A stretch of DNA of 64,000 nucleotides. Origin: Muricea muricata (taxonomy: Eukaryota > Cnidaria > Anthozoa > Malacalcyonacea > Plexauridae). The stretch lies in the NCBI GenBank assembly GCA_963855995.1, contig OY979716.1, positions 44,304,480-44,368,479 of the forward strand, given 5' to 3'. Below, one piece after another: positions 14,075 to 49,994 of the stretch. A model generated the notes under the pieces. It was given only the letters and a program-made list of their open reading frames with translations, was not told the DNA's origin and ran no database searches. The position numbers and the translations under genes are program-made. Position 1 is the stretch's first letter. Each line of letters starts with the position of its first letter.

Positions 14075-14524
14075 ATGCCTATGTCACTGGAAGACATCAA
14101 AACTAACTTGGCCAGTCTTGTACCATATTTACAAAATATCATTGATGAAAATGTCCCTTGCGAACGGATGCAGACATTTTATTATGGTAGCAGGAAGGAA
14201 AGGTAATATGCTAATTGCTGCTCTAGTGACCTGTAAGGTAATGTTTTAGTGGCATGTTTTGTAAAAAATAGTCATATTTAAAGGACGAACCTGATAGACA
14301 AATGCCCATCACAATTCTTCACGGAAGATGAACAGCAAATGGTAGTCCAGGAGCTAATGGGTTTGTTGGCTGGGAAAAGCTTTAACAACCTGGATATCGT
14401 CATGAAAGTTGTATTGCCAGAAACTCTCAAGATGTTCATGGACTTGAGAAACCTGCCATACGATCAGGCAGAGGAACAGCTCCTCGAGGGTGAATTCCCT
14501 GAAGAAGAGGTGCCTGTTGAGGAG
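14075..14524 (+). other. N-terminal region of recombinase copy 1 (two exons)
   Basis: Exon 14075-14202 encodes MPMSLEDIKTNLASL and a helical segment ending SRKE. Exon 14284-14524 adds about 80 residues with MVVQELMGLL, VVLPETLKMFMDL, YDQAEEQLLEGEFPEEEVP. The matching exons of copy 2 (49666-49533, 49397-49153) keep LLPET, QAxEELLEG and EVPVEE. The second exon of copy 1 meets a GC donor (GAG-GAG|GCATTT) where copy 2 has GT. I do not recognise this domain. Confidence 0.65.
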
Positions 14525-14596
14525 GCATTTATGCAAAAAATGTGAAGTGTAATGTCTAACCCATATACATTTAAAAGAAAATATATAATTTTCTAG

Positions 14597-15711
14597 ATGA
14601 GAAGTCATGAACATCTTGCTGAAGATGTTATTCCACCATCTCTGGCAAAAAGAAGGAAGGTAATTATTTGATGAAATTGATAACTATTTCCGTAATCTTA
14701 ATTTATTAAGAAGTATTTGATCATTTAGAGCCCAAGAATTCATGGCTGTTCAAGACTGCTCTACCTCAAAGGAGCTCATCATCCACCCCAGGTATACTCG
14801 ACTAGTTTTAATCTGTCAGAATTTCCTTCATATGTCACATGCTTCTTATTCACACATTTCAGAAAGAGAACAGTTTGGAAAGTGCTTCCACGTCTGGTGT
14901 GGTTCGAAACCTATTCGGAGATCCGATAGCAGGCCCAAAGGTATGTTCGAATAGTGTTAATTGGTGACAGTTTGCTTATTCATACGTCACATATTTTCTA
15001 TTGCCATATTTCAGGGAAGACGACAGTTGGGAGCACGTAAAAGACCATCAACGGCGAGAGATATTTTCTCTGATGCAAAGCCATCAGCCCCAAAGGTATT
15101 TTTGACTAGTGATAATCAGTCAAAATTTCATTATTCATATCTCACTTATTTCCTGTTGCCATATTTCAGAAAATACACTCGTCGGAAACGTGCAGGAATG
15201 CAACCATGGCCGTAGATCAGCCACCTGCCACAAAGGTATCTTTGACGGTTGGTTATTGGATCAAAATATTCTTATTCATAGGTCAAATATTTCCTATTCC
15301 CTTATTTCAGAAAAAGATATTGTTGGACAGCAGCAAGACACTGACAGTTGTCATTGAAAAATTCTAAAAAACTAGTCCATAAGGTATTTTTGATTTGTAA
15401 TAATCAGTCTAAATTTCCTTAAGCATATGTCAAGTATCCTCTATCATATGAATGTTAGATTCCAGAAACTCACGAACCTTCTCACTCCGATCATGATGGT
15501 GATGAATGTAGAAAGATGATCGAAGAAAAGGTTTGTTTTGCTAATAAATCTTTATATGTAATCATTCTTATCAAATATAACTGGTAAAAATGTACCTATT
15601 CATGTGTCACACATTTTCTATTTTCCTATTTTAGCAGGTGGAAAGTTCTGAGTGTGACGACGAGTCTTATGTTCCTCCAACACTGACGAGTCTTCTGATG
15701 AATCTGTGGAG
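14597..15711 (+). repeat. Tandem exon-intron cassettes of recombinase copy 1, part 1
   Basis: Eight small exons (63, 63, 78, 81, 66, 73, 72 and about 77 bp) separated by introns of 68-105 bp. Both exon and intron are repeated: introns typically start GTATTTTTGACTAGT, contain AATCAGTCAAAATTTC and a CATATGTCACATATTTCC block, and end CATATTTCAG. The exons begin with Lys or Gly codons and typically end Pro-x-x-Lys at phase 0 (KENSLES...GPK, GRRQLGAR...SAPK, KIHSSET...PATK). Exon 15311-15383 has lost the frame. Symmetrical phase-0 exons allow gain or loss without shifting the frame. The array is split by the BEL/Pao insertion and resumes at 23256. Confidence 0.75.
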
Positions 15712-15847
15712 GTGATCGAAGAAAAGTTTTGTCAAATTCTTGTAAACATTTTTACATTAGTTTTGGTAATAAATGTTTGTATGTAATCATTCGTATCAAA
15801 TATAGCTGGTAAAAATTTACCTACTCATGTGACACACATTTCCTATT

Positions 15848-16219
15848 TGTCGCGTTCCCGCACCACAATTCACCCGTGGGGCCAACTACGGCACGGAGTT
15901 CGCATGTGTCAACCACACTCATACGAAATTTACATATTTAATTAAAACATTTCCATACAAGATGCGGTGAAAACTACAAAGAAAATACGTAAAAAAAACT
16001 AAATAACCTAACCTTCTTTCTGTAAAATACACCGATTTCAACATTACTTACGTCTATAATCTTCTAAATCCAAGAAGGTGTATTAAGTAAGCAAGTAAAT
16101 ATATATATATACTCGAAGTATGAATCGTTATTAGAACGTTTCTCTTGTTGCTTAGCAACCCGGCCGTCTCTCAATTTCATGATAATAACACGAAGTATAA
16201 CACTAATAACAACTTAACA
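15848..16219 (-). repeat. 3' LTR of the BEL/Pao element
   Basis: 372 bp, bounded by TG and CA on the plus strand (TGTCGCG...CTTAACA). It matches the other LTR almost perfectly; the differences are a G/T near the edge, a T/C beside the TA run and two bases of TA length. It is the downstream LTR in the sense of transcription because the element reads leftwards. Confidence 0.92.
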
Positions 16220-16229
16220 CTCCTCGCCC
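16220..16229 (-). other. Polypurine tract of the BEL/Pao element
   Basis: On the minus strand GGGCGAGGAG abuts the 3' LTR, the expected position and composition of the plus-strand primer in reverse transcription. Confidence 0.6.
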
Positions 16230-16249
16230 AAGAATAAGCTATTCTTGCA

Positions 16250-19200
16250 TCATTGTTCGCTCGGAGTTGATAGAAGTAAGACAAGTTCGCTGATAGGACG
16301 AAGTACAATTTTCTTGGTTCCCTCTCTGAAGATCTTAACTCTGGCCTTCCTTACTCTGTCATCTTCACTTTCAATGGCTTCCGTCACTCTTCCCAAGCAC
16401 CAATCATTTCGGTGTAACTCTTTATCTTTCACCAGTACCACATCTCCATTTGCCAGATTCCTTTCTTTTTCATTCCACTTGGTTCTCTTTGCTGTAGGTT
16501 TTGTAGAAACTCTCGTTTCCAACGCAGCCAAAATTGCTCCGCAAGATATTGAACTCTTCTCCAACGTTTCCTAGCGTAGAGATCTTCCCTCACGAAAACG
16601 CCCGGTGGTGGCAGGAGCGGTTTTGGTTTCATGGTAAGAAGCATCGATGGTGACAAAGGAACTGGTTCATCAACATCGGCTGAAACCACAGTGATTGGAC
16701 GGCTATTGACTATTGATGATACTTCAGCCATCAGCGTAAGCAGTAATTCGTCGTCGAGTTGAGATGCCCCGATCTTTAGCAGCATCGCGTCTAAGACTCT
16801 ACGAATAGTTCCTATCTGCCGTTCCCACACGCCCCCAAAATGTGAGGCGTGTGGTGGATTAAATTTCCATTCGCACCCCTGTTCCTCAACGTATCTCCTC
16901 ACTCTCTCCTTATCCATTTCCTTGAGAGCGCTGTCAAGTTCAGACTTTGCACCCACAAAGTTCGTACCGCAATCGCATCTTAAGACAGCAGTCTGACCAC
17001 GAATGGCGAAAAAGCGACGCAAGGCACAAATAAAGGAATTTGCATCCATCGAATGAAGTATTTCAATGTGGATTCCTCTGGTACTTAGACAGGTAAAAAC
17101 TAAGCCCCACCGTTTGGCATTTGCAGCAGATCCTCTGAGTTTCTTTACCTGAATCTGCCATGGCCCGAAAACGTCCATTACGACGTTGGTAAATGGTGGG
17201 TGGGTTTCCGTACGATCAACAGGTAGATCTGCCATATGTTGTGTAAGTGTCCGTCCTCTAAGCTTTTTGCACGTAACACATGCATTGACAATTCGCGACG
17301 CTTCTCCGTGATCATTGACTATCCAGAACCCCGCTTGTCGGACTGCACCATGTGTAATCTGTCGCCCTTGGTGGTGAACAACTTTCTCGTGGTAGTGACG
17401 AATTATTAGCAACGACAGGTGGTGCTTCTTCGGCAGGAGTATCGGATGTTTCTCCTCGAAAGTTAGACTTGATCGGCTGAGACGTCCGCTAACTCGGAGG
17501 ATTTCATCTCGATCTAGGAAGGGGTCCAATCTGACGAGATTGGACTTGCGGAGGAGTCTTCTTCTTTCTTTCAGGTGGTCTCGACTTTCCGTCCCCTTGT
17601 CGTCATTTCTCTTCAACGCGTTGATCTCCGCTGCAAAGACTTCTCCCTGAACTGCTTTTATAATCACTGTTTTAGCAGCTTCGCCGCTTTCCTTAACCGT
17701 TGGATGTCGACATTCGTCCTTGACCTTTCGACCTTGCTCCGATCCGCGCATGACTTTTTTAGCTTTCTGACTTCTTATCTTCTCAACAAGATAAGCTATC
17801 GCACGTTGAAGTATTGTCCAGTCCGAGAATCGCTCAAATCGTTTAGCGTTAAGCGCTGATTCTTCTGTTGAGCTTGTAGCATACGCGTTGACTTTGACCT
17901 CGGGATCGTTTTCATCGATACTAATTTCGTCCATAGTTAATGGCACCGACACATTTATAGTTGGCGTATTCTTAGGTTCTGTCTTCAAGAATGATGGGCC
18001 TTCAAACCAGTTAGAATCTATCAACCCTGTTGCAGTTGTGCCACGAGTTGCCAAGTCTGCTGGATTTCTTGATGTTTGGACGTAGTTCCATTGGTGAGGT
18101 TCCGATGCGTCCCTGATCGTCTGGACTCGGTTGGCGACATAAATGTGGAATCTGCGTGCATCATTATTGATGTACCCCAGAACTACCTTAGAGTCCGTAT
18201 AAAACTTGACGTCATCAATCCTTAAGTCTAGCTCAGTCCGTAACTTCTTTACAGCTTTGATGGATAGCACAGCTGCGCACAGCTCGAGACGAGGAATACT
18301 AGTTGGTTGGATTGGTGCAACTTTCGCCTGACCGAACACCAAGCTAACGCTTGCTTTGCCCTTCTGATTAAGTTGTTTCAGATATGCCGCTACCCCGATG
18401 GCCTCTTTACTGGCGTCAGAAAAGGCATGGATTTCATTTCGCACCACTGTACCAAAGTTCTTCGGGTGGTAACATCGTTCAATGGATACACTTTCCAGAC
18501 TTGCGATTTGATTCTTCCAACCGTGCCATTGGTGGTTCAGATCTGGAGGAAGGGGGTCGTCCCATCTGAATGGTTGATCGTTCGTCTTCTCTCTTCCCAG
18601 GATAATTAACTTCTGCAATAACAGTTTGCCGACGAGGACTACGGGTGCTACCAATCCCAGTGGATCATACAGCGAATTGACTATGGACAAAACTCCTCTA
18701 CGTGTTAGTGGTTTCTCAGGAACTGAAACACTGAATGTCAATTGATCGTCTTCTAAATTCCATTGCACCCCCAGGGCGCGTTGTGTCGGCAAAACATCTT
18801 GACGTAAGTCGAGATCTTTCACGTCCTTTGCACGATCTTCCGGAGGAAAGGCCTCCATCACTAAGGCTGAGTTTGAAGCCACTTTGTGAAGGTGTAGATT
18901 AGCCGTTTCGAGGCAGGCTTGTGCGTTGCGTATCAAATCGATTACCTCTTCTTCCGTTGGCTTAGAGGTCAATCCATCGTCCACATAGAAATTATTACAT
19001 ATGAACTCTTTCGTTTTCTCTCCGTAGACCTCCTCGCCGTCTTCGGCTGTCTTCCTCATCCCAAAGGTCGTTACTGCAGGGCTCGGACCATTTCCAAAAA
19101 TGTGGACAGTCATCCTATAATCTATTATCTCTTGTCTTGGGTCGTTGTTTTTGAACCAGAGAAACCGTAGAAAGTTTCTGTGTTCTGGATTGACGTGAAA

Positions 19201-22200
19201 TGCGTAAAACATCTACTCTATGTCGCACATGACCCCGTGGTTTTCTTGACGGAACCGAATTAAGACACCCAAAAGGTTATTCATTAGATCTGGGCCAGCT
19301 AACAACTCCTTGTTCAGTGAGACGCCTTGGAATTCGCACGACGAGTCGAACACCACTCGGATCTGGTTTGGTTTTCTTGGGTGGTATACTCCAAAGTGTG
19401 GAAGGTACCATACCTTGGTAAGATTGCTCTCCTTTGACTCCGTTGTCTCTGCTGGAGGGATGTCTAGTGACTCCACTGGTTCTTCAGTAGGCACGACCTC
19501 GGCGTGGCCACGATCGATCATGCTGGACATAAATTCCAGGTAATCGTTTTGCATTTCGGGCTTTCTTTTGAATGTTCTTAATAGCCCATTGAGACGATTA
19601 AGTGCTTGTTCTCTGTTATTTGGCATGACTACGTCTTCAGTACGGAAAGGTAGTGGCATTTCCCAATTACCAAGGGCGTCTTTATGAATTCCTTTCTCAA
19701 CGATCTTTAGAAATTGACGATCTTCTTGCGACAAAGCAACATCGTTATCCTCTGGTGTGGTGTGGTAAACGTCCTCCTGATTCTCATTAAAGGGCCTTTC
19801 GTGGCTTTCCTTAACTTTAAAATAGTTTGGGCACGAAACGGTCTCTACTGGTGGGACGCCGTCCACGTTCGCCGAACTCATGCTGCGCGGTTGATCCTTT
19901 TCTAATGCTGTACGATACGCGGAAACGTGCGCGGGACCGCCTACACGGTCTAGACATGTCTGACCAGAGATTGTCCAACCTAGCAGCAACTTCTGAGCCC
20001 AAGGGGCTCCTTTTGGCCCATTCCTAAATTCGCGGACTTTTAGTAGCTCCGGTGCATCTCTTCCCAGAAGAATTTCAATGTTAGCATCTTTATCTAGCGG
20101 TGGTATTTCGTTGGTGATATCGTAGAGATGTGGGAAATGCTTTGTCATGGATGGAGTGGGAATTTCATCTTTTTCTTGTGGAATATGTTCACACTCTATC
20201 AGTTTGGGCAGTTTGGTAACCGTCCCATTTAATGACTTGATCATTAGTCCTGACACCCTGCGACCGTATTTCGTCTCTCTGGCGCTGCTGCACGTCGAAA
20301 GGAGGTACTTTTCTTTGGGGGCGTCTACTTCCAGTGTATCGGCAAGGTTTGGTGTAATCATGGATGCATTACTTTGCTCGTCAATAATTGCATATGCTCT
20401 GCAAACTATTTCTGGATTATCTTCAGTAAACACGTCCACTAATACTATTTTGCTGCACGAGAGTCCTCCTGTTTTTCCACGACACACAGAGGTACATTTT
20501 GATTTGACTTCCTCTTCCCCGTCTTTCTCTTCTTTAACCTTCGTTTGTTTTTCTTTATGCAATGCGAAAAGATGGCGAGTGCTGTCACACTTGGTACATT
20601 TTACTTCCTTTTTGCAATCTTTAGCGCGATGTTTCCCGGAAAGACAACGAAAACAAAGACCAGCGGACTTTAGCCATTCCATTTTTTCTTCAAAATTTTT
20701 TGTCTCGAATGCTTTACAACCGGTTAGTTCGTGTCCGTTGCGGTCATGATAGTAACAGTATTTCTCTTGTTTAATTTGTTCGTTCTGATCACCGTCCTTA
20801 GCGTTAGCTTTGTAGGCCTTAGCATGATGTTCGTTACTCCCTCGTTTTTCACTCTTCTTTGTTTGATCGGAATTCGGGTCAGCTGCAGAAACATTAGGAT
20901 GATTCTTCAACATCGCTTGTTTTTTAATCATGAGCGCGAACGTGTGAAATCCGGGATAATTATCGTTATTCTCTTCTGCGTAGCTGACTACCTTTTTTTC
21001 CCACTTGAATCGAAGAAAGCTTGGAAGGTTATCAACAATTGGTCTGATGGCACTTGTGTAGTTCAGACAGGCAAGCCCAGGTAGATTGTTGATTTGGTTA
21101 TCGACGTCCATACAAATGTCTGCGAAATCTTGTAACTTTACTTTGTCCCGTCCATTGAACTTTGCAGATTGTTGTAATTGCTCTAGTAGCGAGTTGGTTA
21201 TAACAGCTGTGTTCCCAAATCGTCTTCCTATTTCGGCCCACAGTTCACGAAGTGTAATCGCAGGATCACTGCGTTGTCTTTTCCTGAAATTGTCAACTAA
21301 GTCTCACACCTTGCCCTTTGTGTAGTTTCTGAGATAAGCCATTTCTTGGTTAGGATTTAGGTTGGCGTCTTGGATCATCGCTTCGAATGCCCTTTTCCAT
21401 GGTTGAAATAGTGTTGCATCACCTTCGAATACTTCTGGGTGACATTTTGGAAGATTTTGCCTTGCCAAGCTCGCAATTACCCGTTCGTTTGTTTTTGCGA
21501 TCCCTTCAATGCATTCTTGAAAGGCTGTTGGACCAGGAATTGAGGGTATTGGTGTAAAAATTGGTGGGTTCCCTGCAAATCCCTTAGGGGTAAGTAAACT
21601 CTTCGCTCTTTCGTCTTTAGTATGATCGTCCACATACTTTGCTTGAGCTTGTTCCACTTGACCTCGCTCTGCTTGACCTTGCTTCAAACTTCGGTTTGTA
21701 GGTGGTGACATTTTTTGGGTGTTGCCAGTTATATCAGGCATGATAGCAAAGGTGTTAACCAGGTTAGGATCTCCTAGCTCGGGTTCATGTTTGAGATTGT
21801 GAATGTCAACCCACGCTTTGGTGCGAGATTCTGTGTCTTCCACTTCCACGTCTTTTTGTTCGAGAAGCAGGTAAGAGGATTCTTCTTGGAGAATTGATTG
21901 TTCAACAGCATCGAGTTTGGCATTTGCGATTGCCTCAGCTTTCTCTGTGGCCAAGATTGCCATTTCTACTTCATGTTGTGCACGTCTCCGTTTCAAGCGT
22001 AGTTCTTCTTCCGCTTCATATAATTTTCTTTCATTTTCTCTTACTGCTATAATTCGATCGAATTCTGCTTTTTTCTTTGCTGCTGCAGCTTCCGCCATGG
22101 CCTTTCTTCTTGCACTTGCCGATGATGTTGAACTTGCTCGTGATAGTCCACTACGACGAGTACTCCTCGAACTAAGAGAAGGCGCTACTTCTGATGGTCT

Positions 22201-22752
22201 CCGTCTGTCCGTTCCGTCGTTAATTGCTTTCAACGCAAAATCTAGGATTTCTTTGCTATAGTTTACATGTTCATGTGCTTTATCTGAAAGTTCTCCCCAT
22301 TTGTCTCTCTCTAACAGGCTTATTAGCTCCTCCAACAAGCCTTTGTACTTCGTGTAAGATAATTTTGTGTTCGATAAATGAATGTCAAAATCCTTGGGTA
22401 GGGACTCTGCTGACAATGCTTTCTCAATGGTTTCATATGTTGTCTTTAACGTTTTCCCCTCTTTAGTAAGCTCAGATAGTGTTGTTTGGATGGCATTCTG
22501 AATAGCCTTTTGTGATAATGTACGACTTCTACCGGTTTCCACATTTACCCCTTCCATGTCAGCTGGTAAGACTCTTTGGGTCTCACCCCCCTTATTATAC
22601 GCTGACCCCCTTGAGGGTGTTGTTGGATCCCCCTTTACACCGTTAGCATGTTGATGCTTCGTAATCTGCTCACGTTCCACGGTTTCTGCATTTTTCCTAT
22701 GCTCGACCCCAGGCTCCCGATTCTCGTGACTCGTCCAGCTCATTTTGAACAC
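16250..22752 (-). pseudogene. BEL/Pao Gag-Pol polyprotein, two in-frame stops and one frameshift
   Basis: One frame runs from the ATG at 22752 to about 16500, broken by TGA at 21306-21304 and TAG at 19215-19213. It then shifts, and the C-terminal domain continues to 16250 in another frame. In order: a Gag coiled coil rich in Ala/Glu (about 22150-21850), zinc knuckles CFRCLSGKHRAKDC and CTKCDSTRH (about 20650-20560), an aspartic-protease region reading AIIDEQSNAS where family members usually show a DSG-like triad, reverse transcriptase with VFDSS and FYVDDGL, RNase H with AFSDAS, and integrase with an HHCC finger (CVTCKK), DVFGPW, DCGTNF and HFGGVWERQ. The Pao-type C-terminal domain follows. 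All domains are present, so decay is recent. The TAG lies inside a conserved reverse-transcriptase block and is most simply a mutation. Confidence 0.92.
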
Positions 22753-22864
22753 ATGTTTTTAATAACCGTTTATGCCTTTATATATCCAATATTTCGAAGA
22801 AAACAGATTTAATGTCGTAGCCCCACTGACTAGCTCGCCCCAAAGACAACTTTAGACTTTTCAC

Positions 22865-23238
22865 TGTCGCTTTCCCGCACCACAATTCACCCGTGGGGCC
22901 AACTACGGCACGGAGTTCGCATGTGTCAACCACACTCATACGAAATTTACATATTTAATTAAAACATTTCCATACAAGATGCGGTGAAAACTACAAAGAA
23001 AATACGTAAAAAAAACTAAATAACCTAACCTTCTTTCTGTAAAATACACCGATTTCAACATTACTTACGTCTATAATCTTCTAAATCCAAGAAGGTGTAT
23101 TAAGTAAGCAAGCAAATATATATATATATACTCGAAGTATGAATCGTTATTAGAACGTTTCTCTTGTTGCTTAGCAACCCGGCCGTCTCTCAATTTCATG
23201 ATAATAACACGAAGTATAACACTAATAACAACTTAACA
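22865..23238 (-). repeat. 5' LTR of the BEL/Pao element
   Basis: 374 bp, TGTCGCT...CTTAACA on the plus strand, nearly identical to 15848-16219. It carries the element's promoter by position. The 5-bp duplication CTATT follows at 23239. Confidence 0.92.
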
Positions 23239-23255
23239 CTATTCTCCTATTTTAG

Positions 23256-23466
23256 AAGGCGGAAAGTCATGAGTGTCGAGATGAATCATCTCACCGTCCA
23301 TCACACGAGCCTTTGCCAGTCCAGAAGGTATTTTTGATTTGTGAACATCAGTTTAAATTCCCTTAATCATATATATGATATATATCCTCTGCTCATATTT
23401 TAGAAACAGGTCAGGCAAAGCAGCAGCGATTGCTCAAGTGGACCTGAAGCCGCCCCAAAAACAAAG
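23256..23466 (+). repeat. Tandem exon cassettes of recombinase copy 1, part 2
   Basis: Two further small exons, 23256-23327 (KAESHECRDESS...PVQK, 72 bp) and 23404-23466 (KQVRQSSSD...APKTK, 63 bp), both phase 0 and separated by an intron starting GTATTTTTGATT. The first resembles exon 15635-15711 (VESSECDDES), showing a cassette-level duplication that predates the retrotransposon insertion. Confidence 0.7.
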
Positions 23467-23571
23467 GTTTGCAAAATTCTTCTAAACATTTCTTTATGTT
23501 GGAAAAGAAATATAAAAAAATGATTATAAAAAATTACAAAGAATTATCTAATTTTTCATTTTTTAAAACAG

Positions 23572-23831
23572 CAAGTGAGAAGATCCCGACCTTGCCTCTT
23601 GTGTGCTAAGGAGGTCAAATACATGACTGACCACCTTAAAACCATCCACCACAAGACGGCAAGTGAGGCGGTCCTACTGAGCAAGTGCAATCGCGCGGTA
23701 AAGCTTGGCGTCGTGCAGAACAACAAACCAGTTGCCTGTCCTGTGCCTGGCTGCAGTTCTCTTGTGGTGCGAGTAAACCAGCACCTTCGTAATATCCACA
23801 AAATGGACAAAAATGACGAAGAGTACAAGAG
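23572..23831 (+). other. Double C2H2 zinc-finger exon of recombinase copy 1
   Basis: Acceptor AAACAG, donor AGAG|GTTTTG. The exon encodes a first finger CLLCAKEVKYMTDHLKTIHH and a second CPVPGCSSL...HLRNIH, separated by a basic linker. It is open throughout. Copy 2 keeps only the second finger (CPVEGCNTY...HLTNMH at 47237-47098), so the first was lost or replaced there. The fingers probably bind DNA or RNA; this is family-level inference. Confidence 0.75.
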
Positions 23832-24302
23832 GTTTTGTTTATTATGTATTGTTAAAAGAGATTTTACTTCTATATAACATATGCATGAAAATTTCGCCGA
23901 AATTGTGCTCGTGTATCTTATGTATATGTGTCCTATAATAGATATAGCAAGGAAATTCGGCTGTTGCGCGCAATGGAAAAGAAGGCATCAAAAGATCAAG
24001 CCAAGACAGGTGGTGATGATGATGACGCCAATTCTTCCATGTCCTGCAACTCGACTACAAACGACGATGATTGTGCCAAAAAGACCCCCTGGAGCAACTG
24101 ATGGCTTCCCCCAGGAGACTGAAGGCGGACCTCTCTAGCGGTAGTGTAATATTTTTGTTTGGGTAGACTTCCTCTTGCGGTAGTGTAATATTTTTGTTTT
24201 CTACATGATGTATTTATGAAATGTTAGCACTCTCTCTTCATCATGTACACTGTTCCCACTATTTTTCTTATCATCCCTATACCTTTCTCTAAATGACTAC
24301 AG

Positions 24303-25420
24303 GTGATCATGGAGATAGAAGATCTCCCCGTGCTCAAGCTCTTTATGCACAACCTGTCGGTGTATGAAGGGGGCCGTAGGAAGGCACGGGTGTGTAAGGA
24401 CCATGTGAGAAGAATGTGCCGCCTCCTGTACGAAGTTGATTCAGAACCAAAGGGGGTCAAGAAGTTATGGCAACTTTTGCCGATGAACACTATCCGCAAC
24501 AACTTCTTCGAGGGAAACGATCTGCTATGTGAAAAAGACAAACGCAAGCCCCAAACACTGAAGTCCTATATCTTCACCTATCGATTGTTCCTGAAATTCA
24601 ACTTGGCCTCTGAGGAGAGCATCAGACTCCTCGAAAAACTGGATGATGATGACATCTGGCAGGTGAGAGATTATAACATTTAAACATATTTTTTTAACAA
24701 TATTTAGGATTACAACCCTAATCCTAATCCAACCCCACTCCTAACCCAAATCTATTCTTAATGCTATCCCAATTTCAACCCTTACCCTAATCCTAACCCT
24801 GATCCTAATCCTACCCCACTCATAATCTTAACCTGTTCCTAATGCTATCCCAATATAAACCCTTACCCTAATCCTAACCCTGATCCTAATCCTATGCCTA
24901 CTCTAATCCTGATACAAATTCAAAAAAAAATTAAAAAGTTTTTTTAACCTAACCAGATCCGATCCGCACTAGCCCATTTGGAGATGTGGCCGAAGGCGTT
25001 CACAGATGCCTTCAACCTGCGTAAGGCTCAAGTGCGTGAGCGGGACGAGAAGGAAAGGCTAACAAAGGAGGACTTCCAGTCGTTTGTGGGAGGGGAAAAA
25101 GCAACGGAGATCCAAGCCAAGTTTGAGATGCTGGCAAACAACCCGACGAAGGTGGTCGTCATCAATAACTTTGCTGAACTCCGCAACTACTTGCTGCTGT
25201 TGGTGCTCACAGCAAGTGGTCAACGCTGTGGGGCTGCCGCCAACCTCACAGTGGAGGAGTTTGAGCAGGGTGTTGAACATGCCAACAGCATTTATGTGAC
25301 AAAGACCCTGCGCCACAAGAGGGCTGCGGGCGGCCAGGCGAAGCTGCTTTGAGACGCTGGGCTTAAGAAGATGGCAAGAACATACCTTGATGTCATGCGA
25401 CCAATATTTGCCAACAATAG
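24303..25420 (+). other. Core-binding and first catalytic exons of recombinase copy 1
   Basis: Exon 24303-24662 encodes a helical segment (VRRMCRLLYEVDSEPKG...KPQTLKSYIFTYRLFLKF) like the N-terminal core-binding domain of tyrosine recombinases. Exon 24957-25420 continues with NNFAELRNYLLLLVL and ASGQRCGAAANLTVEEF, whose Arg fits the first catalytic arginine. A TGA at 25350-25352 (after GGQAKLL) interrupts this exon; the same position in copy 2 is Trp, so it is a nonsense change. Confidence 0.75.
24703..24915. repeat. Degenerate telomere-like CCTAA repeat in an intron
   Basis: Runs such as ACCCTAATCCTAACCCTGAT recur with variants (CCTAATCC, AACCCTTACCC). It fills most of the intron between exons 24303-24662 and 24957-25420. 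It resembles (CCCTAA)n with interruptions, and could be an interstitial telomeric repeat or a minisatellite of similar motif. Confidence 0.6.
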
Positions 25421-25485
25421 GTATGCAAAAAATTTATTATTAACATTTCATTACAAAATTCTTTAAAAAAAAAACACAACCATTA

Positions 25486-26177
25486 TAGTCAGGGAGGCAG
25501 AGGTCATTTTACCTACCTTCTCGAGGGACAAATCCATTTTGCTCTTAAATTGTCCGTTACATGCCTAATATAACAATTCTGAATGTTGTTTGGCCCAATT
25601 TATCTTGTGGGCTTCGATCAACACGTTTTTCTTCAGTTTTATTATAAAACTATTATGTGGTCAAAAATAGCAAACTTTCAAGTTCATTCATTTGAAAAAT
25701 GACTTGTATCATCAGAAAGCTTATAAAAAACAACATATAAGACATCATTACGGACATCCTGGTTTTTCAAGCTGTTTTCGAGTTATTGCTGCTTCAAAAC
25801 GGGAAAATGTCCTAAAATGACGCTAATTTCCTGGGCACTAGTCTGAAAATAAGTTTTCGAACGCTCATAACTCAACAAAAATGTGGAAAATAAAAGTAAC
25901 CATAATAATGTGTTATATGTAGTTTTTTATTACCTTTTTGATAACGTAAGTGGTTTTTCCCAGAAATAAGTCCGAAATTTCGCCTTTTTTGACAATAATA
26001 TAGTTTTATAGAAAATTTAAGAAAAAACGTGTTGGCTGGAGCCCACAAGAAAAATTGGGCCAAACAACATTCAGAATTGTTATATTAGGCATGTAACGGA
26101 CAATTTAAGAGCAAAATGAAATTGTCCCTCGATATGGTAAGTAGACATGTATTTTTGTACCTCTGCCTCCCTGACTA
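25486..26177. mobile_element. 692-bp non-autonomous DNA transposon with long inverted ends
   Basis: The left end starts TAGTCAGGGAGGCAGAGG; the right end is its reverse complement. The arms match for about 130 bp with a small gap, including TTAAATTGTCCGTTACATGC and AATGTTGTTTGGCCCAATTT. TTA flanks both sides (25483-25485, 26178-26180), fitting a 3-bp duplication of the Harbinger type, or a TA target if the ends are read one step differently. No transposase is encoded. It occupies nearly all of the 783-bp intron between exons 24957-25420 and 26204-27220. Confidence 0.85.
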
Positions 26178-26203
26178 TTAATATTAATCTATTCTAATCA
26201 TAG

Positions 26204-27220
26204 GTCCATGATTCCTGCCACTGCTGGCATCCCAGCAAAGCTGGCTTTTTTATTACTGCGTCTGGGCAAAATATGAATGAAAGTATGACCAGTAAAAGGA
26301 TTGACGCTATAGGCAAAAAGCTGAATCCCACCATGCCCGGCAATCTTCGCGGGTCAAGGCTAAGAAAAGGAATCATAACGATGCAAGGATCCGACCAATC
26401 CACATCCATCAGCAACACAAAATTAGCTAAACAGATGAGTCACACGGTCACAATGGCCCAGCACTATTACAACATTGAAGACGACGCACAGGCTGATGTT
26501 GACGTGGCATTGTACCTGTCCTCTTTCCTAAAACCAAAAAAGACAGTACCGGTTCCACCAACGCCAGCATCACTTACATTTGTGAGCGATCATGAAGTGC
26601 AATTGCTAACAGCTGCACCATCTCCACCAGTATCATCAGTGCCAAGAAGCCAGCCGTCACCTCCAAACACTGGTTTCAACACTGGTCCACATGCACTGAA
26701 AACCCTCACTTTAGCTATGGTAACAAACATACCATTACCACCTGCTCTAGCACCTGTTCCAGCACCTGTTCCAGCACCTGTTCCAGCGCCTGTTCCAGCA
26801 CCAGCACCACAACTGATTGCACCACAACGGGGGCCTTATGTACCAACACTTGCCAAAGGATTACCACAACAAAAACCCACAGCAACAGCACCAAAGCCAG
26901 TTACCACCTTGCCAAAACGCAAAATAAACTTTGCAGAGAAGTGTCTCTCCTGGATCCAGACGGGGAAGATACAAGACCATGGTCGACCAAGTTCCTCCGC
27001 TGCAACATCCTCGTCTGGGTCCAGACACTATTGGACCCCTCTACAAAGCGAAGTTGTCATGGAAGCCACCAGACACCTGCCTTCCAAAGCAAGGATGGAA
27101 ACCATCTTCAAAGCAGTCTTTGCTGATCAGGCATGCCAAAGACATGCCATAACTGAGCTCTTCACCCGACAGCAAATCCGGGATAAGTTCCGAAACATTG
27201 CCAAGAAGCGCGATTTGTAA
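26204..27220 (+). other. Last exon of recombinase copy 1: catalytic C-terminus and tail
   Basis: It begins SMIPATAGIPAKLAF, loses one base in the T-run near 26246, then reads NESMTSKRID, SRLRKGIITM, AKQMSHTVTMAQHYYN. The LR pair, the His in MSHT and the Tyr in HYYN fit the remaining catalytic set; the usual first His of box II is Ser here. A Pro/Ala-rich linker follows (four APVP repeats near 26755-26800), then a basic helical tail RHYWTPLQSEVV...TRQQIRDKFRNIAKKRDL that is well kept in copy 2 (45120-44735). Confidence 0.75.
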
Positions 27221-27324
27221 ATATTTTCCTTTATATAATTTCTTTTATATTTCACATTCTATCATTTCTTCTCTTTTTTGAAATATACTAAAAAGAGAAT
27301 TATTTGTGTATAAGTGGATTTACA

Positions 27325-27515
27325 AGTCTTAACCTATTCCTACTTCTATGCCAATATTAACTCTCCCTAATCCGAACCCTTATCTTAACCCTTTCCCTAA
27401 TCCAAGCCTAATCCTAAGCTATTCATAATCATAGCACAATATAACTAATCTTAATACTAACTCTTATCCTAACCGTTTCCCTAATCCGAACCCTGATCCT
27501 AATCCTATCCAATCT
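27325..27515. repeat. Second telomere-like CCTAA repeat, just after copy 1
   Basis: Phrases such as CCCTAATCCGAACCCT and CTAATCCTAAGC recur about 100 bp beyond the stop codon of recombinase copy 1. It is the same degenerate motif as at 24703-24915. Confidence 0.55.
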
Positions 27516-27579
27516 ACTATTTTTACACCCTATAATTGGCATCATATATATATGCATAAAAGGCATCATGCTTGTGAAA

Positions 27580-28370
27580 AAATGACAGACTGGACCAAAA
27601 ATTGAAAAATTTTGTCACGTTTTTGAATCTGTGGACAATGTTTTCTACCAGTTAGACTTGACCGATTCTTCTCAAACTTGGCACTTGCATTCACTTAAAT
27701 AGGGGCTTGCCAAAACTGTTAATCGCTTGGGCATAGCTTGTATAATCTTGGAGAAAATTGGACCCGAACAGGGCATCTTTTCACTATTCCGTACGCATTT
27801 TCACCTTGAAGAACCTATTTTTTCCTGAAAAGATGTATTGCAAAAATGATCTACGCATCAAGTTCTATAAGAACAAAGAATAAAAACGCGTCTTTTAAAA
27901 TTGACGTTAGTGCAGTCAAACACTCAGTCAATTTTTGGAAAGAAAATTATTCCATGTCTGTATCTATACACAGCCTTATCCTTTCACTATGAGGCAAAAA
28001 TGTAGGTATAAAAGGTCATCATGACACTGTTCTAAGTGCAAATCTGCTTTTATTTGTGAAAAATGACCAACTGGGCAAAAAATTGAAAAATTTTGTCTCG
28101 TTTTAGAATCTGCGGACAATGTTTTCTACCAGTTAGACTAGACCGATTCTTCTCAAACTTAGCACTTGCATTCACTAGGATAAGGGCTTGCCAAAACCTT
28201 TAACTGCTAGGGCATAGCTTGAATAATCCTAGAGAAAATTGGGCCCAAACAGGGCATCTTTTCACTTTCCGTACGCATTTTCACCTTCAAGAACCTATTT
28301 TTTTCTGAAAAGATGTATTGCAAAAATGATCTACGCATCAAGTTGTATCAAATAGAGCAATAAAAAATTT
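27580..28370. repeat. Repeat blocks matching the 7480-13130 mosaic
   Basis: Two copies (about 27590-27960 and 28060-28360) of a block with GACAATGTTTTCTACCAGTT, GCACTTGCATTCACT and the GAAGAACCTATTTTTT core. They match about 10045-10290 and 11705-11900. Their position on the far side of recombinase copy 1 suggests that gene was inserted into the array. Confidence 0.75.
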
Positions 28371-29737
28371 GAACACCCGATTCGGACCACGCCCATACCA
28401 TAAGTTTCCCAAACATCACTTAAAAATGTCTAAGACATCACTTCATTATTGTTTCCAGGCCACGCCCACCTCGGCAAAACCCTTTGGACCACGCCCAATC
28501 CCACCTCCACTTAGGCTCCGCCCACTTACTCAAGTCACCATTCACTTTGCCTCCATTAATCTCGACTATCGAGCAAAACACCTAGCCTGGTCACTTATTG
28601 GTTAATTAGGTCAAGAGAGTAGAAAATGCCCATCAAGTGCGCCTAACGAGCGAATGTTAACAACAGCGACTAAATTTTAACCAAAATTTGACTAAGTGTC
28701 ACAATCCACCGAATAGCAATTTCCCTTGAAAATGCTATCTCCAAGGTGCTCCACTAAAGGGCAATTTCCCCTGAAAATGCTATCTCCAAGATGCTCCACT
28801 AAAAGGCAAAATCCACTAAATGATCAATCCACTAAAAAGCAACTGCCCTTTAGTGGATAATCCACTAAAAGGATACCAAACTCCTAACCCTAACCAAGAG
28901 ATTTGGATATCAAATCGTTGTTGTAAAATGATTCCACTAACGATACTTCACAGACCCATCCTTTTCCTGAAGAAAACCCTAGCCAAAGCCATTCCAATTG
29001 GAAACATTTACAATTCTTCATTCATCTCACTTAAATGTGCAATGTGAGGAAGATCACAAACAAGAGAAATTAATTGAATTCTTCACGGCAACATGCATCT
29101 CAATCCATACAATCTGATTTAGAAATTGATAGCTTTCCATTCTCTACGCTAAACTTTGAAAGACTTTCAATCATATTCTCGAAATAAAAAATTATCATCC
29201 TGATCGTTGCCAAGAGACGTAAGTTCTTGCCAATGCTTGCTAAGAGTTGTTAAAAGCTCCTTAAGATGGATTTTCCCCTGCCCTTATTTTTCAAGGTTGG
29301 TTTGCATTTCTTCTAGAAAAGCAATAATTCTAGGAAACCACGAAACTATTTTCCAAGGAGGAAGATTAACAGCTTGACTTTTCATCATGAGAGTAACACT
29401 TGGTTGAAGAACGTCTAGAATCCCACACATATCAATGGCCTAATCTTGACCCCACACCTACACCTTGGCATACACTGTATTATGATAATATACGTAACAC
29501 TGTGTCTTAAACACAATCTATAATGCAGTCAGATAAGACAATGTTTATAATATTTCTGTCACTGAATTAGCTGTGGAGTTTAGCAGACTTCTCAACTCAC
29601 ACAATTTCATCGTGTAACACACAATTTTAAGCTTTATCTCACAATCTGATACAAGGCCTTGTCTTGTTTTCACATGACAATGAAGAAGTGTCAGGGCAAT
29701 GAGCGCAACAACGGTTGTACCTGTATAAGGGGATACC
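28371..29737. other. Intergenic stretch with short repeats
   Basis: No supported gene. Contains CCACGCCC motifs (28385-28530), a ~48-bp direct repeat AGCAATTTCCCTTGAAAATG...CTCCACTAAA (two copies, about 28710-28805) and several TCCACTAAA phrases to 28880, a motif also seen within the 7.4-13 kb mosaic. Confidence 0.45.
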
Positions 29738-31150: not shown

Positions 31151-31151
31151 T

Positions 31152-40060: not shown

Positions 40061-40669
40061 TTTTGTGAATGTAACATAAAGATACATATAATGCCTACTA
40101 AAACAGTTGCATTGGCAAAGACAACAGCCTGAGAACATTGCATCTTCTTAATTGTATTGTTTGTGGTGCATTTCTTCGGATTGCTGAATTTATATACTGT
40201 AATTTATTCACAATCACAGTGTTCAGCTACAATTCAGCTGCACTTTCATGGATTGGATTCCAAATGACAAATGTTAATGATTTCATGTCTTTAATTAAGC
40301 CTGTTTTCCACTTCAACCGTATCACCAGAAGTGCACATGAAACAAATAAATACACTACGTTTCGGTACAACACGGTTGAAATGGGAAAAGGGCTTAAGTA
40401 TCAAATGTCACTTAGTTTTTAACGTCTTGTGGTCATCTGTCATTGGCCCCGCCCTCACCTTATCGCTGACGCGCGTGATCGCGGTTTGCGCCTGCAATGC
40501 TCAATGTCAGCACCATTGCGGCAGGATAAAAGCACTGTCACATCAACTTGCGGCAGTCTCCTGCGGTAGCCGAAACGTACTTTCCACTATGGTTCTGAAC
40601 GCAAATGGAACGGGTTCTGAATGCAAATGGAACGTGAACGCAGTGTTAGGTTGTTTCTGAGCAGTGCTG

Positions 40670-43138: not shown

Positions 43139-43330
43139 GAGACAGTACCGCACGATTCTATTGTTTGAAGGGTAGATTGTCTTGATTGACTGATGCATTG
43201 AGACAGTACCGCGTGATGCTTATTGTTTGAGGGTAGATTGTGTCTCGACTGACCAATGCATCGAGACAGTACCGCGCGATGCATATTGCTTGAGGGTGGG
43301 TTGTGTCTCAACTGACCAATGCAACAGGCA
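43139..43330. repeat. About 62-bp tandem repeat, three copies
   Basis: GAGACAGTACCGC starts units at 43139, 43200 and 43263, each with ATTGTTTGAGGGTAGATTG and CTGACCAATGC-like segments. The third unit ends in a partial copy. Confidence 0.8.
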
Positions 43331-44262: not shown

Positions 44263-44715
44263 GACAGGTCTTTACCTGTAGTCGAAATGCGGTGTTATAA
44301 TAAATCTCTTGATCATAATATAAGATCATTCTCTTGATCATAATAGTGAAAATATGGTTATAAAATATACTTATGAAAATATAGTTATCAAAATATAGTA
44401 TTTTTACAATACATACATTTCAATAGATCCTTCCTTACCTGTTGTTGAATTCGACAGGTCTTTACCTGTGGTCGAAATGCTGTGTTATAGTAAATCTCTT
44501 GATCATAATATAAGATCATTCTCTTGATCATAAAAGTGAAAATATGGTTATAAAAATATGCTTATGAAAATATAGTTATCAAAATATAGTTATCAAAATA
44601 TAGTTTTTTACAATACATACATTTCGACAGATCTTTACCTGTTGTTGAATTCGATAGGTCTTTACTTTTAGTCGAATTTCACAGGTCTTTACCTGTTGTC
44701 AAAATGCTGTGTTAT
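44263..44715. repeat. About 190-bp tandem repeat with CAGGTCTTTACCTG palindromes
   Basis: Copies start at 44263 (GACAGGTCTTTACCTG), 44453 and, shortened, 44626. Each includes TCTCTTGATCATAATATAAG and ATATAGTTATCAAAATATAG. The array ends close to the 3' end of recombinase copy 2. Confidence 0.8.
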
Positions 44716-47310
44716 GTAAAACAAAAAATATTTACTAAATGTTCCTCTTTTTTACAAGGTTTTTAAACTTGTCACGAATTTGTTGTTGTGAGAATATTTC
44801 GGTAATTTTGTGGCCCTGGCATTCGGGATCTTTTCGCATGGTGTTGTCAATGTCTGTAATTCCAGCACGACGGTGCAGGTGCTTCGTCGTGTTTCTCACC
44901 ACTTCCCCTTGCAGGTCCATCCAGTACTGTCTGGACCCACAAGAGGAAGATGTACTTGATGCCACGTCATGTATAACTCCTTTGGTAAGCCATGAGACAC
45001 ACTTTAGCTCTGGACTTAATGGATGTTTATGGATCTTGCCAATGGTTAACACATTTTGCACAGGTGTATGTGACTTCTTTATCCTCAGCTGTTGCACGCC
45101 ACCATCGTCAACAAATGTGACCTGTGGTGGTGCTGGTGGTGTTTTAGGAGATGGTTGTTTGCTCGAGGGAACCCAATAATGATAATAATTAATAATTAAC
45201 CTACTCATATTTCAACAGGTTCACTTTCAGAAAAATATTTACATTTGTTGTTGGACCACATCCTTGACCGACGGGACCATTGATGTTAGAAGTGGATCAG
45301 TACTGGTGGACATATCATCGGAAGAAACCTAATAATAATAATAATTAATTTAATGATATTTCAACAGGTTAACTTGTTTCAGTATATGATGATACTGTTA
45401 TCAATGTAGGACCTCTGTTTACGTTACCTGCGCTGATTTAGGTTTAAACAGGGACCTGAGGTAAGATGCCACCCTGGCATTAGACTGCACCTCTTCTTCA
45501 ACGTAACAGTACGTCTGTGCAGTTGATACAGAATGGCTCATCTGCTTGGCTAACGTACAGGGGGATGGTGGCAGCTTCATCTGTCCATTGAAGTGAGACT
45601 ATGCCCTTCCTCAATTGCGACCCGTGCAGATTTCCAGGCATATTAGGCTTCAGCTTTTTTCACATAGTGATTATTCGCTTGCTGACCATGCTTTCATTCA
45701 TCGGCTGACCAGCAGCACTGATGAGGAAAGCTGGCATTGCCGGAATGCCAGCAATTGCGGCAATGACCGACCGTTCGCTTGCAAACATTGGCGTCAGTTG
45801 CACATCCCACATGAGCTTCACGTGGCTGCCCGCAGATGTTTTGTGCCTCAGTATCTTGGTGATGTAAAGGTCCTTTGAGTGCTGGACACCATTCCAGAGC
45901 TCCCCGACTGTGAGATTGCTCGCAGCCCCATATTGTTGACCACTTGCCATGATGACCAGCAGCAGCAAGTAGGCGCAAAGTTCCGCAAACTTCATGATGT
46001 CCACTGCCTCATTGGGATTGTCCGCCAGCCTGTCGTATTCCGATTTGGTCTCTTTAGCCTTATCGCCGTCGATGAGCGCTTGGAAGTCTTCAGTTGTCAG
46101 CGTCTCTTCCTCATCCCGTTGACGCACTTCTGACTTTCATAGGCTGAATGCATCAGAAAATGACTTTGGCCACAAGTCCGCCTGTTCATTGCAGAATAGA
46201 CCTAGAACAACAACAATACCAACAATAAGAATTTATTGAAGAGCAGACTTGAATGATCATAATATTTGGAAAAGGTTACAAACCCTCACCTGTCGGAGAT
46301 CGTCGTCACCAAATGCCATCAGTTCTCTGATCTCTTCTTGACATGACATGACAAATTTAAGAAAGATCCGCAAGCTCACGATGTAAGATTTGAGTGTCTG
46401 TGGCTTTCTTCGGTCCTTCCCCAGGAGGTCATTTCTGGCAAAGAAGTTGTTCCTGATCTTTGTCAATGAGATATGTTGCCACAGCTTACGAACAGTTTTC
46501 GGCACAGACTCAACCTCATAGAGCAAGCGGCTCACTTTCCTTACATGGTCAGTGGAAATGCGTTGTTTTCGCATACTACGTTCATATGTACGAAGGCTAA
46601 ACAAATGCATAACCGGGAGCTCTTCTATCTCCCTGACAACCTGTAGTATATAAAAACATTCAAATAGTTTATTACGTAGTCTTTAATAAAGGAGTTTAAT
46701 TAAGATTGACATTTTTGGGACATATAGAGATCAGGAGAAAATCCAGGGAACAACGTATGTTAGGGAGAGACAAGTAAAATATATGCTGAAAAACCAAAAT
46801 ATTACACTACCGCAAGTGGTGGGTCCGCCCTTGGTCTCCTGGGGGAAGCCAACAACTTGTCCAGGGGATTGCTGTCCTTGATGAGTGCAAATGGGATGAT
46901 GGTTTCTCAGCACTTGTGCTGGGTTTTCCCAGCGAAGTGCATTTGGACGTCCTTGCCATCGACCGCAGAAGGATAATTTGGTCATTATATCTATGATAGA
47001 ACACAAATACATAAGATACATAACCACATATTCCTTAAAATTTCACCTAGATGTTATAAAATCTTAAATGTATGTTAAAGATATGTAATAAACCAACCTC
47101 TTGTAGTCTTCACCATGTTTATCCAATTTATGCATGTTGGTCAGGTGCATGGCTATGCAGACTGCATAGGTATTGCACCCTTCCACGGGACAGGCTACTG
47201 GCTTGTTTTCTGACTTCACAACGCGATTCACTCATTTCTAAAATATCAGCAGATGATGTATCTCATAACAAATAAGGAAATTTTGACCGATTATAATTAG
47301 CCAAACATAC

Positions 47311-48809
47311 CTTTTGGACTGGTGAAGGCCTGGTCAGGAAAATATTCTGACCCTTCGCTGCACTCTGCATCCGAGCTTTGCAGTTTCTAATATACGAGAA
47401 TGGAAGATATGTGACACAAATAATTAAATTTTTACCAGTTAAATTTGCCAAACCTTTTTTCGATGAGCCCTGCAGATTCTTCTGCAGAATCACCACTGTC
47501 ATACTCAATTTCCTTATTCATGTCATATGTAATCTGCTTATATTTTAGATAACTTTGACCAATTATCACTAGTTGAACCTACCTTTTGGACTGGTGAATC
47601 TTGCTTGGAGTGATGTTCGGGCCCATCGTTGCAATCCCCTGAGCTTTCCAGTGTCTAAAATATGAAAGTGGGAAATATGTGACATTATATGTAAACAACG
47701 AGTTTGAGTGTTTCATCAGGGGATCCAAACACGAGAAAACGGTATGAAACACAAGTGCGAAGCGCGAGTGTTTTATTGTTTTCGAGTGTTTGGTTCCCCT
47801 GATGGAACACGAGAAATGAGTTGTTTACATAACATCTCAAACGAAAACATTTCACTGGCTGTTCAATTTATTAAGCACTAATGGGGACCTATGAAAGTAA
47901 TTTGTTTTATCTTTGTGAACAATGGAGATAAGTATTCTACCTCCTGCTTTTGTAAGTTAATTTCTATAGTCCATTGTAAGACAGAAATGTGTAGGGCGTG
48001 TAGAACTTATTGCTGACCTTGATCATTTGAACATAAGCGAAGAGGGAGTAATTAGGATGAATTTGTAATTAGGATTTCAGTTATTAGATGAAAACCGTTT
48101 TTGAACTAACAACAGTGATGGTATATGATTTTTAGCGTGTTTCCTTGCGATATCGAACGTCAATCATGTGACGAATTCGGGTGAGTTCATTTGCTAATTT
48201 GCTTATGAATTATTGAGTTGGAGATACATGAGTAAATTTTGAACAGTAAAATCTAAAGATGTATAGCTAAAACTTATGCAGAAATGTTTAGAAGAATTTG
48301 ACAAACATTTCTTTCGATCATCCCTTCAGATTCTTGAATGGAATCATCCATGTCATTGTCAGGTTCCTAAAATATGAGCAGATGGTATATGCCATATGAA
48401 TAAGGAAATTTTGCCGGTTATCACTAGTCACACATACCTTTGAGGCTGGAGGACTATTTTTCAATAGATCTTTGAGACATTTGGTCCTCATTGCCAAACT
48501 TTTGATTTTCTGAAATATGGGAATAGGAAATATGTGACATATTAACAAGGAAATTTTGACTGATTATCACTAGTCGAACATACCTTTGGGGCTGGTGGCC
48601 AATCTTCGAAAATGTCTCTGGCCATCAATGGTTTGCTGATTTTTCCAAACTTTTCGTTTTCTGAAATATGGGAATAGGAAATATGTGACACAGGAATAAA
48701 GAAATTTTGACCGATCATCACTAGTCGAACACACCTTTTGGACTGGTGGACTACCTTTATACAGGTCTCTGACCACGGATTTGCTGATGGTCTCTGCACT
48801 TTTCCTTTT
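47311..48809 (-). repeat. Tandem exon-intron cassettes of recombinase copy 2
   Basis: Cassette exons: 48809-48735 (KRKSAETISK...PVQK, 75 bp), 48660-48584 (77 bp, frame lost), 48509-48438 (KIKSLAMRTK...PASK, 72 bp), one ending near 48320, 47654-47583 (72 bp), one at about 47545-47454 and 47386-47311. Introns repeat GTATGTTCGACTAGTG...AATTTC and CATATTTCAG in the same order as copy 1. The array is interrupted by about 0.6 kb of unrelated sequence containing a MITE (47691-48280). Confidence 0.7.
47691..47828. mobile_element. 138-bp foldback MITE inside copy 2
   Basis: GTAAACAACGAGTTTGAGTG at the left end and its imperfect complement at the right end form arms of ~50 bp (including TTTCATCAGGGGATCCAAACAC against GTTTGGTTCCCCTGATGGAA) around a small loop with CGAAGCGCGAGTG. 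It has no coding capacity. It interrupts a cassette intron. Confidence 0.75.
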
Positions 48810-49994
48810 CTGAAAAATAGGAATAGAAAATATGTGACATAATGAATAAGGAAATTCTGACCGATTAAAACTAGTCAAGCATACATGGGGCGGTGGATGA
48901 GCTGATTTTAGATCAAGTATTCTCGATGCTGGATGGTAACTTGTGCTCTAAATGATCAAATACTTTTTATGAAATTAAGATTACGGAATCGGTTATCAAT
49001 TTTATTAAATAGCTACCTTTCCCCTGATCTCAACAGATGGTGGAATGACATCCATATCATCAGATATATGACTTGTGTTCTAGACAATGAGAGAATTCTT
49101 TTGACAAATATATGTCGGTTAGACAACACATTATACATTTTTATATAAATACCTCCTCCACAGGCACCTCTGTTTCTTCAAACTTGCCCTCGAGCAGCTC
49201 CTCTTGTGCCTGTTTATATGATATTCCACATATGTCTTGGTATATCTTGATCATAGTTTCAGGAAGGAGCAACTTCATGACACAATCCAAGATATTTGTC
49301 TTGTTTTTCAGCATCTCCATCAGCTCATCCATTATTGCATGCCTCTTGTTGTTCTTCAGAAAAGTAAACCATCGGGCACTTTTCAACCAAACCCATCCTT
49401 TAAATATGTTTATTTATTTAAAAAATTTCCCAGTGAAACATTATCCTACTTACATAACAGGACGAAACATACACTATTGAATTTTAGAAGATGAACACTG
49501 CTAAGTAACAGCAACAGCAATTAGCCTATTACCTTTCTTTCTGACTCTCACTAATGAATGTTGCCATGCGCTGACAGGGGGTTTTTTGATGCAAGATGTC
49601 TTGCAGGAAATCAAAAAGATCAGCCACCCTGTCTTTCACCTCCTTGGTTGTCATTGCCAGTGCCATCTCCAAAAAAAGAAAAAATTAGTATTAATATTCA
49701 AAAAAAATTTTGATTCCAGAATCCAGAGTCAAGACTTTTTTAACTGCAAAACAGATCAATATTTTGCAAGAAAAAAGAAAAAAAATTCAAAAAACATATT
49801 GGTAAAAAAAAATTGATTCCAGAGTCCAGATTCCACAGTCTGGAATCACGATCCGGTACTTTCCATGAACGGACCAAATTTTTGAAAGATGACAACTATC
49901 GCTAAATTTAACCTTTTAAAGTTGTGGTTTCGAAAAAAAAATTACCTAAATACCTCCATGAAGGCCTTAACTACAATTAGGAAAAAAAACTTAC

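Follow-up and report, generated by a model that had tools for sequence, protein, structure and literature searches.

A stretch of 64,000 nucleotides from the cnidarian Muricea muricata (the window; C1:44304480-44368479) contains two decayed genes that face in opposite directions, and the question raised by this locus is what kind of entity the two genes belong to. An initial annotation described them as an inverted pair of Crypton-like genes with a tyrosine recombinase (YR) domain, zinc fingers, an array of short exons, and an unknown N terminus. We compared the two copies with each other and with the 453-Mb, 74-contig assembly, in which C1 measures 124 Mb. With modest confidence, we favor the reading that the two genes are relics of a YR-encoding DNA transposon family with terminal inverted repeats (TIRs), and that they represent two independent, now dead insertions from different subfamilies. 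The unit would be ~11 to 14 kb long, with imperfect TIRs of ~30 bp, repeated subterminal CCACTAAAAGG motifs, and one recognized gene.

Copy 1 (plus strand) and copy 2 (minus strand) are homologous part by part in opposite orientation, as determined by blastn and six-frame comparison. The conserved noncoding stretch upstream of the gene (13187-13548, plus strand, in copy 1; 50124-49775 in copy 2) aligns at 71%, followed by the start exon (14075-14203 with 49660-49532; E, 1e-10), the helical exon (14315-14533 with 49362-49144; 47% amino acid identity; E, 3e-20), and the short exons, which likewise align. Downstream, homology covers the zinc-finger exon (23689-23832 with 47228-47097; E, 1e-15), the core-binding exon (24297-24680 with 46646-46272; 57% amino acid identity; E, 8e-46), and the first catalytic exon (54% amino acid identity; E, 9e-40); the second catalytic exon aligns as separate segments (E, 2e-10 and 8e-10). 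The tail (26783-27217 with 45154-44738; E, 4e-26) aligns as well. This alignment, far beyond chance, confirms an inverted pair of homologous, decayed, multi-exon genes, and the motifs SGQRCG, SRLRKG, MSHT, and HYYN are present in copy 1 as annotated. Copy 2 (44735-50124, minus strand) belongs to subfamily B; it has lost the first catalytic arginine, Arg I (SGQQYG), and carries stops and frame changes. A local inverted duplication was considered and rejected: the copies belong to different subfamilies, and sequence comparison found no element arms beside copy 2. Given a divergence of the first catalytic exon at the level of subfamilies, a pair of independent insertions is more probable than a single inverted duplication.

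Copy 1 was annotated at 14075-27220; the mobile unit around it is larger (7259-28893, plus strand; ~14.3 kb without a nested BEL element). Homology shared by copy 1 with the units at 84.18 Mb (L078 plus L039) and 51.64 Mb (L079 plus L040) of C1 starts at 7259-7260 and stops at 28889-28893. When the three are compared in pairs, the ends coincide to within ~11 bases, and the sequence outside them is unrelated. All three complete units belong to subfamily A and lie in unrelated places. Their terminal sequences are TTAGAGGTTTGGCCTTTTAGTGGATTAT (5' TIR; 7261-7288, plus strand) and, on the other strand, TTAGGAGTTTGGTATCCTTTTAGTGGATTAT (3' TIR; 28857-28887, minus strand), which are identical at 26 of 28 aligned positions with one 3-nucleotide gap; CCCTAA lies directly outward of the 3' TIR. 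With up to three mismatches allowed, each end pattern (a 24-mer for the 5' end) had one match in the window and none in shuffled sequence. The motif CCACTAAAAGG, with up to one mismatch, occurs nine times in the window, and seven of these matches fall within ~180 bases of the unit ends: at 7273 (minus) and 7437 (plus) at the 5' end, and in a cluster at 28751-28872, at 28751, 28796, 28829, and 28862 (plus) and 28846 (minus). The remaining two are at 26289 and 50322. The other two complete units have the same layout, with clusters at both ends. We read 7259-28893 as a mobile unit because the same ends, with TIRs, recur at three places with unrelated flanks. An earlier idea, that the repeats flanking the gene are mere background, was rejected, as they fall inside this unit. 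Telomere-like CCTAAC/TTAGGG tracts were seen directly outside several unit ends (L040, L051, and L078), and the 3' end of the 51.64-Mb unit is found with its flank in tandem, at C1:51639084 and 51640706, 1.6 kb apart.

The catalytic part of the gene is, as judged from its sequence, a divergent YR. The best-preserved copy, L041 (C1:44.96 Mb; subfamily B), contains a 271-amino-acid catalytic frame that matched PF00589 over positions 5 to 168 of 172 (E, 5.4e-4; 20.2 bits; curated cut-off, 27.1), and this was the sole family returned; its core-binding and catalytic exons together gave an E value of 0.0011 (19.2 bits). L073, a distant relative in the same genome, matched PF00589 (E, 0.0037) and PF02899 (E, 0.0066) and, among NCBIfam models, XerC (E, 1.4e-6) and XerD (E, 2.6e-5). 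A second distant relative, L074, used as a query, recovered the window family across the L074 catalytic domain (E, 7.5e-10). The catalytic set of tyrosine recombinases is R-K-[H]xxR-H-Y. In a five-sequence alignment, R91, K122, R210, H236, and Y244/Y245 are invariant; the first His of the HxxR motif is replaced by Ser in the window family. Loss of Arg I was seen in three loci, at 47.66 Mb, at 84.64 Mb, and in copy 2. In copy 1, the first catalytic exon (24957-25420, plus strand) carries Arg I and Lys and is interrupted by a nonsense codon at 25350-25352, and the second, which continues into the C-terminal domain (26204-27220, plus strand), carries Arg II, His, and Tyr, with one frameshift near its start; together with the decayed short exons, these are the lesions of copy 1. 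The predicted structure of the C-terminal domain had a mean predicted local distance difference test score of 58.1, too low for a fold search. Among viral contigs, 63 pattern matches included no relatives of the family.

At least 15 exons could be modeled in L041, each preceded by AG and followed by GT; the boundaries were chosen by hand, without a transcript, and the tail exons lie outside the model, which spans 877 codons with two stops. Nine of these exons are short (60 to 75 nucleotides), all multiples of three and in phase 0. The array probably grew by tandem duplication of such symmetric exons, because the array of copy 2 (48386-48884, minus strand) is a 151-nucleotide tandem exon-intron repeat of 3.4 copies. 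In copy 1 (plus strand throughout), exon 1 (14075-14202; boundary by L041 homology) contains the start codon and the first part of the N-terminal domain, and exon 2 (14284-14524) contains the PF20886-like sequence described below. The upstream part of the short-exon array (14597-15751) comprises 14597-14659, 14729-14791, 14863-14940, 15015-15095, and 15170-15235, the rest being decayed, and the downstream part lies at 23256-23466, with boundaries drawn by eye in both. The zinc-finger exon (23572-23831) shows two C2H2-like motifs by eye and a weak match to zf-C2H2_2 (E, 0.065; below cut-off); a linker exon (23942-24140) and the core-binding exon (24303-24662) were placed by homology.

The N terminus, annotated as unknown, turned out to be recognizable: it resembles the C-terminal domain of PWWP3A/B (MUM1), at the level of profile similarity. 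Exon 2 alone matched PF20886, the family of that domain, in all six copies scanned (E, 0.012 to 9.6e-6), with scores of 15.9 to 26 bits that are all below the cut-off. When exons 1 and 2 of L041 were joined manually, they matched positions 28 to 128 of 141 with 27 bits, equal to the cut-off of 27 as printed, so that the splice is supported too. Unlike in PWWP3A/B, the domain is here fused to a YR, and our scans returned no PWWP domain. In a genome search with PF20886, three of 26 matches lay over the cut-off with neighbors in frame. With exon 2 as the query, 21 places were found in the genome, none with a stop; 19 are at loci of the family, and the matches without a catalytic match are at C63:276324 and C1:47972822. 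Weak matches to the other half of PF20886 were seen in five frames ~8.57 kb apart at C1:92917148-92951621, and likewise at C45:12013 and C13:7749156 (E, 0.19 to 0.36 for the whole set).

A genome search with the catalytic exon scored all 46 candidates and yielded 39 matches. These comprise 23 separate loci with at least 54% identity, 5 additional fragments belonging to them, 3 places with 38% identity, and 8 with 23 to 27%. A single-copy host gene with only a local duplication, which the annotation had named as a finding that would overturn it, is thereby excluded. The 23 loci are clustered, with 21 in the 37.28- to 86.75-Mb interval of C1 and the others at C3:32414 and on C39; as a control, of 147 PF00589 matches (the scored part of 545 candidates), 88 fall on C1 and 30 in that interval (Fisher P, 5e-11). 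The C3 copy sits 32 kb from the contig end. The three places at 38% identity form a third subfamily, L033 to L035 (C1:44630547, 50242989, and 55075626), in the same region of C1; these are 97.6 to 98.6% alike over 3.3 kb in two pairs compared, and their core-binding and catalytic parts lie in a single 351-amino-acid frame.

The core-binding and catalytic exons are under purifying selection. We compared them in 42 pairs with more than 150 shared codons and a synonymous divergence (dS) below 0.9; the pairs are not independent. The ratio of nonsynonymous to synonymous divergence (dN/dS) was 0.10 to 0.39 in 33 of the 42 listed pairs (dS of at least 0.14) and 0.25 to 1.42 in nine younger pairs with few changes, and the excess of silent change in the pair L019/L020 (the same loci as L041/L042) had a P value of 2e-24 with approximate site numbers. 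A transposase lineage and a host family would both be expected to show such selection, which is one of three observations, with the host-like exon structure and the confinement of 21 of 23 loci to 37 to 87 Mb of C1, that would suit a host gene family of YR descent spread along one chromosome by segmental duplication. The unit ends speak against that alternative, since the same ends, with TIRs, recur in unrelated flanks at three places, as does the state of the copies: the core-binding and catalytic exons have an in-frame stop in 10 of 23 loci and a frame change in 13, and at least one of the two is found in 17 loci over the three exons compared. We regard a host family of this kind as improbable.

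In a different alternative, a foreign DDE transposase mobilizes a TIR element in trans, and the gene is a captured, host YR-derived passenger. DDE elements usually have short TIRs and subterminal repeats, as this unit does, and the introns and the PWWP3A/B-C-like domain of the gene have a host-like character. A search of the genome with the 3'-end 27-mer, allowing up to two mismatches, gave five matches, all exact and all on C1: the three complete units, the 47.66-Mb copy, and the tandem repeat of the 51.64-Mb end. All five thus lie at gene-bearing copies or at a tandem repeat of one such end, which argues against a passenger; more diverged gene-less derivatives would be missed by this search. 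The absence of a common target-duplication length among three insertions, the retention of the catalytic residues, and the selection described above also argue against movement by a DDE enzyme, and we consider it unlikely, if the more serious of the two alternatives considered so far.

Several results weigh against a YR-encoding transposon and must be set beside those in its favor. Scanned singly against Pfam, none of six catalytic, core-binding, or tail frames of the window matched a YR family; the lack of any YR profile match, which the initial annotation had named as refuting it, thus applies to these exons taken one at a time but not to the better-preserved L041, both of whose scores are below the cut-off. 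No YR family was returned for L033, L074, or L077 in a Pfam scan of five proteins, the XerC and XerD scores of L073 are far under the cut-offs of those models, and L041 and L074 had no match in NCBIfam. A profile search of the PDB gave no significant YR, with XerA only at an E value of 0.59; its best row, a capsid protein at 6.4e-4, was taken as chance. Both ends were located in only three of the 23 loci, and these belong to a single young group. The 47.66-Mb copy has a 3' end alone, inverted relative to the gene, and the 75.63-Mb copy has a 3' end alone that is related with up to four errors and adjoins TTAGGG repeats; no end was recognizable in the 9.9-kb stretches of L041 and L042, and none was reached in subfamily B, the source of the gene model. 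Confinement of 21 of 23 loci to one 50-Mb stretch is odd for a free transposon, and the lesions in 17 loci count here as well. Kept catalytic residues are no proof that the YR moves the unit. Finally, no consistent target duplication was found among the three complete insertions. Left and right flanks have CCAA in common for copy 1 and GGACT for the 51.64-Mb unit; these are possible target duplications that differ in length and offset. None was seen at 84.18 Mb, where the unit sits within a 112-bp inverted repeat. A search for an empty site with the joined flanks of the 51.64-Mb insertion recovered nothing but the flanks of that insertion and the tandem repeat. Because the flank matches are inconsistent and this query returned only the element's own flanks, neither the presence nor the absence of a fixed target duplication is proved.

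If the units are YR transposons, to which known group do they belong? The annotation as Crypton-like stands in a wide sense only, that of a YR-bearing DNA element in which no reverse transcriptase of its own was recognized. CryptonA and CryptonI are likewise DNA elements in which a YR is the sole recognized gene, and a standard animal Crypton was therefore weighed as a further alternative. Animal Cryptons are described, in the account by Kojima and Jurka (PMC3212892), as being without terminal repeats and without a C-terminal domain. The window family has ~30-bp TIRs and a conserved tail, 46% identical between copies, and because of these two features it is not filed as an animal Crypton; DUF3504 was not among the families returned in the Pfam scans made. 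We judge a standard Crypton to be very improbable. The best reading is of a YR DNA transposon in the wide sense that cannot be filed as an animal Crypton, set apart by two described features.

The closest likeness within the genome is to the C2H2-YR relatives L073 to L077, which share two C2H2 fingers, a core-binding region, a YR, and a C-terminal region (by eye), as well as the same R..K..R..H..Y residues and a sequence match in both directions. They differ in having long frames without introns, no returned match to PWWP3A/B-C, and 23 to 27% identity. Such relatives occur at approximately 18 places or more on C1, C2, and C5, in a search that scored 59 of 256 candidates; some occupy frames of 682 to 820 amino acids, and the relatives may define a further element family. 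Proteins similar to L073 to L077 occur in fish and cnidarians.

TEC elements carry inverted repeats plus a Tc1-type transposase. The likeness to them lies in a YR within a DNA element and in the inverted repeats; no second, Tc1-type transposase gene was recognized in the arms of the copy 1 unit. TEC elements are known only from ciliates (PMC4157794). Fungal Starships are large DNA elements with a YR, 170 to 196 kb in PMC12506042, that have a DUF3435 captain as the first gene at the 5' edge as well as accessory genes. In contrast, the window gene is central, its start in copy 1 lying 6.8 kb inside the 5' end, and the element is far smaller; DUF3435 was not returned in Pfam scans of L041 and relatives. 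DIRS, Ngaro, and PAT elements combine a YR with reverse transcriptase and RNase H, neither of which was recognized in 7259-28893 outside the nested BEL element. A literature search, whose coverage mostly excluded subscription journals and preprints, found no TIR-bearing animal YR transposon with a PWWP3A/B domain. The combination of a PWWP3A/B-C-like domain, zinc fingers, and a YR in a many-exon gene fits none of the known element families compared.

The remainder of the unit consists of its arms and of foreign insertions. The 5' arm (7259-13186, plus strand) contains palindromes at 10241-10452/10488-10699 (96%) along with internal repeats several hundred bases long, and its sole frame of at least 100 amino acids, 7474-7905, has no Pfam match. 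The 3' arm (27221-28893, plus strand) has internal repeats and no frame of more than 91 amino acids; a degenerate telomere-like CCTAAC tract lies within it at ~27350-27530, and another lies inside the element at 24717-24910. A BEL/Pao retrotransposon (15848-23128, minus strand), with 264-nucleotide direct repeats that are 99% identical and a Pao peptidase (PF05380; E, 1.9e-42), is inserted in the short-exon region of copy 1 and is foreign to the element. A foldback occupies 25510-26143, between the catalytic exons, with arms of 277 nucleotides (25510-25786 and 25867-26143) that are 78% complementary. The idea that this gap is an insertion into an exon was dropped, as subfamily A copies have an intron there, with the foldback within it. 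Outside the unit, two open frames close to its 5' end (5336-6185, plus strand) resemble a PIF/Harbinger-type nuclease by eye, a 663-amino-acid open frame at 57095-59086 (plus strand) matches Transposase_21 (PF02992; E, 5.6e-9), and a 357-amino-acid open frame at 60651-61724 (minus strand) resembles, by eye, the endonuclease part of a long interspersed nuclear element.

Taken as a YR transposon, the family would encode a product that opens with a PWWP3A/B C-terminal-like domain, followed by a linker from nine short exons and by two C2H2-like fingers. Core-binding and YR catalytic domains would come next, the latter with R, K, R, H, and Y, and a small C-terminal domain would close the protein. 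The zinc fingers, the C-terminal domain, or both may bind the subterminal repeats, and the PWWP3A/B-C-like domain may address chromatin. We infer that the YR itself moves the unit; it would cut and rejoin the ends, probably by way of an excised circle and without a target duplication of fixed length. Going further, we suggest, tentatively and with a good deal of doubt, that this is an unrecorded class: an animal TIR element moved by a many-exon YR with an acquired PWWP3A/B-type chromatin domain, whose ends often adjoin telomere-like TTAGGG tracts and whose spread is bound to one 50-Mb region. If so, chromatin may direct insertion, or insertion may be limited to a nonrecombining region.

YR transposons are few, and their integration in animals is little understood. 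The TIRs, the repeated subterminal motifs, and the several young copies of this family provide a concrete substrate for asking how a eukaryotic YR recognizes its ends. The presence of a PWWP3A/B-C-like domain in the same protein, together with the distribution on one chromosome, makes chromatin-guided insertion or region-restricted proliferation directly testable.

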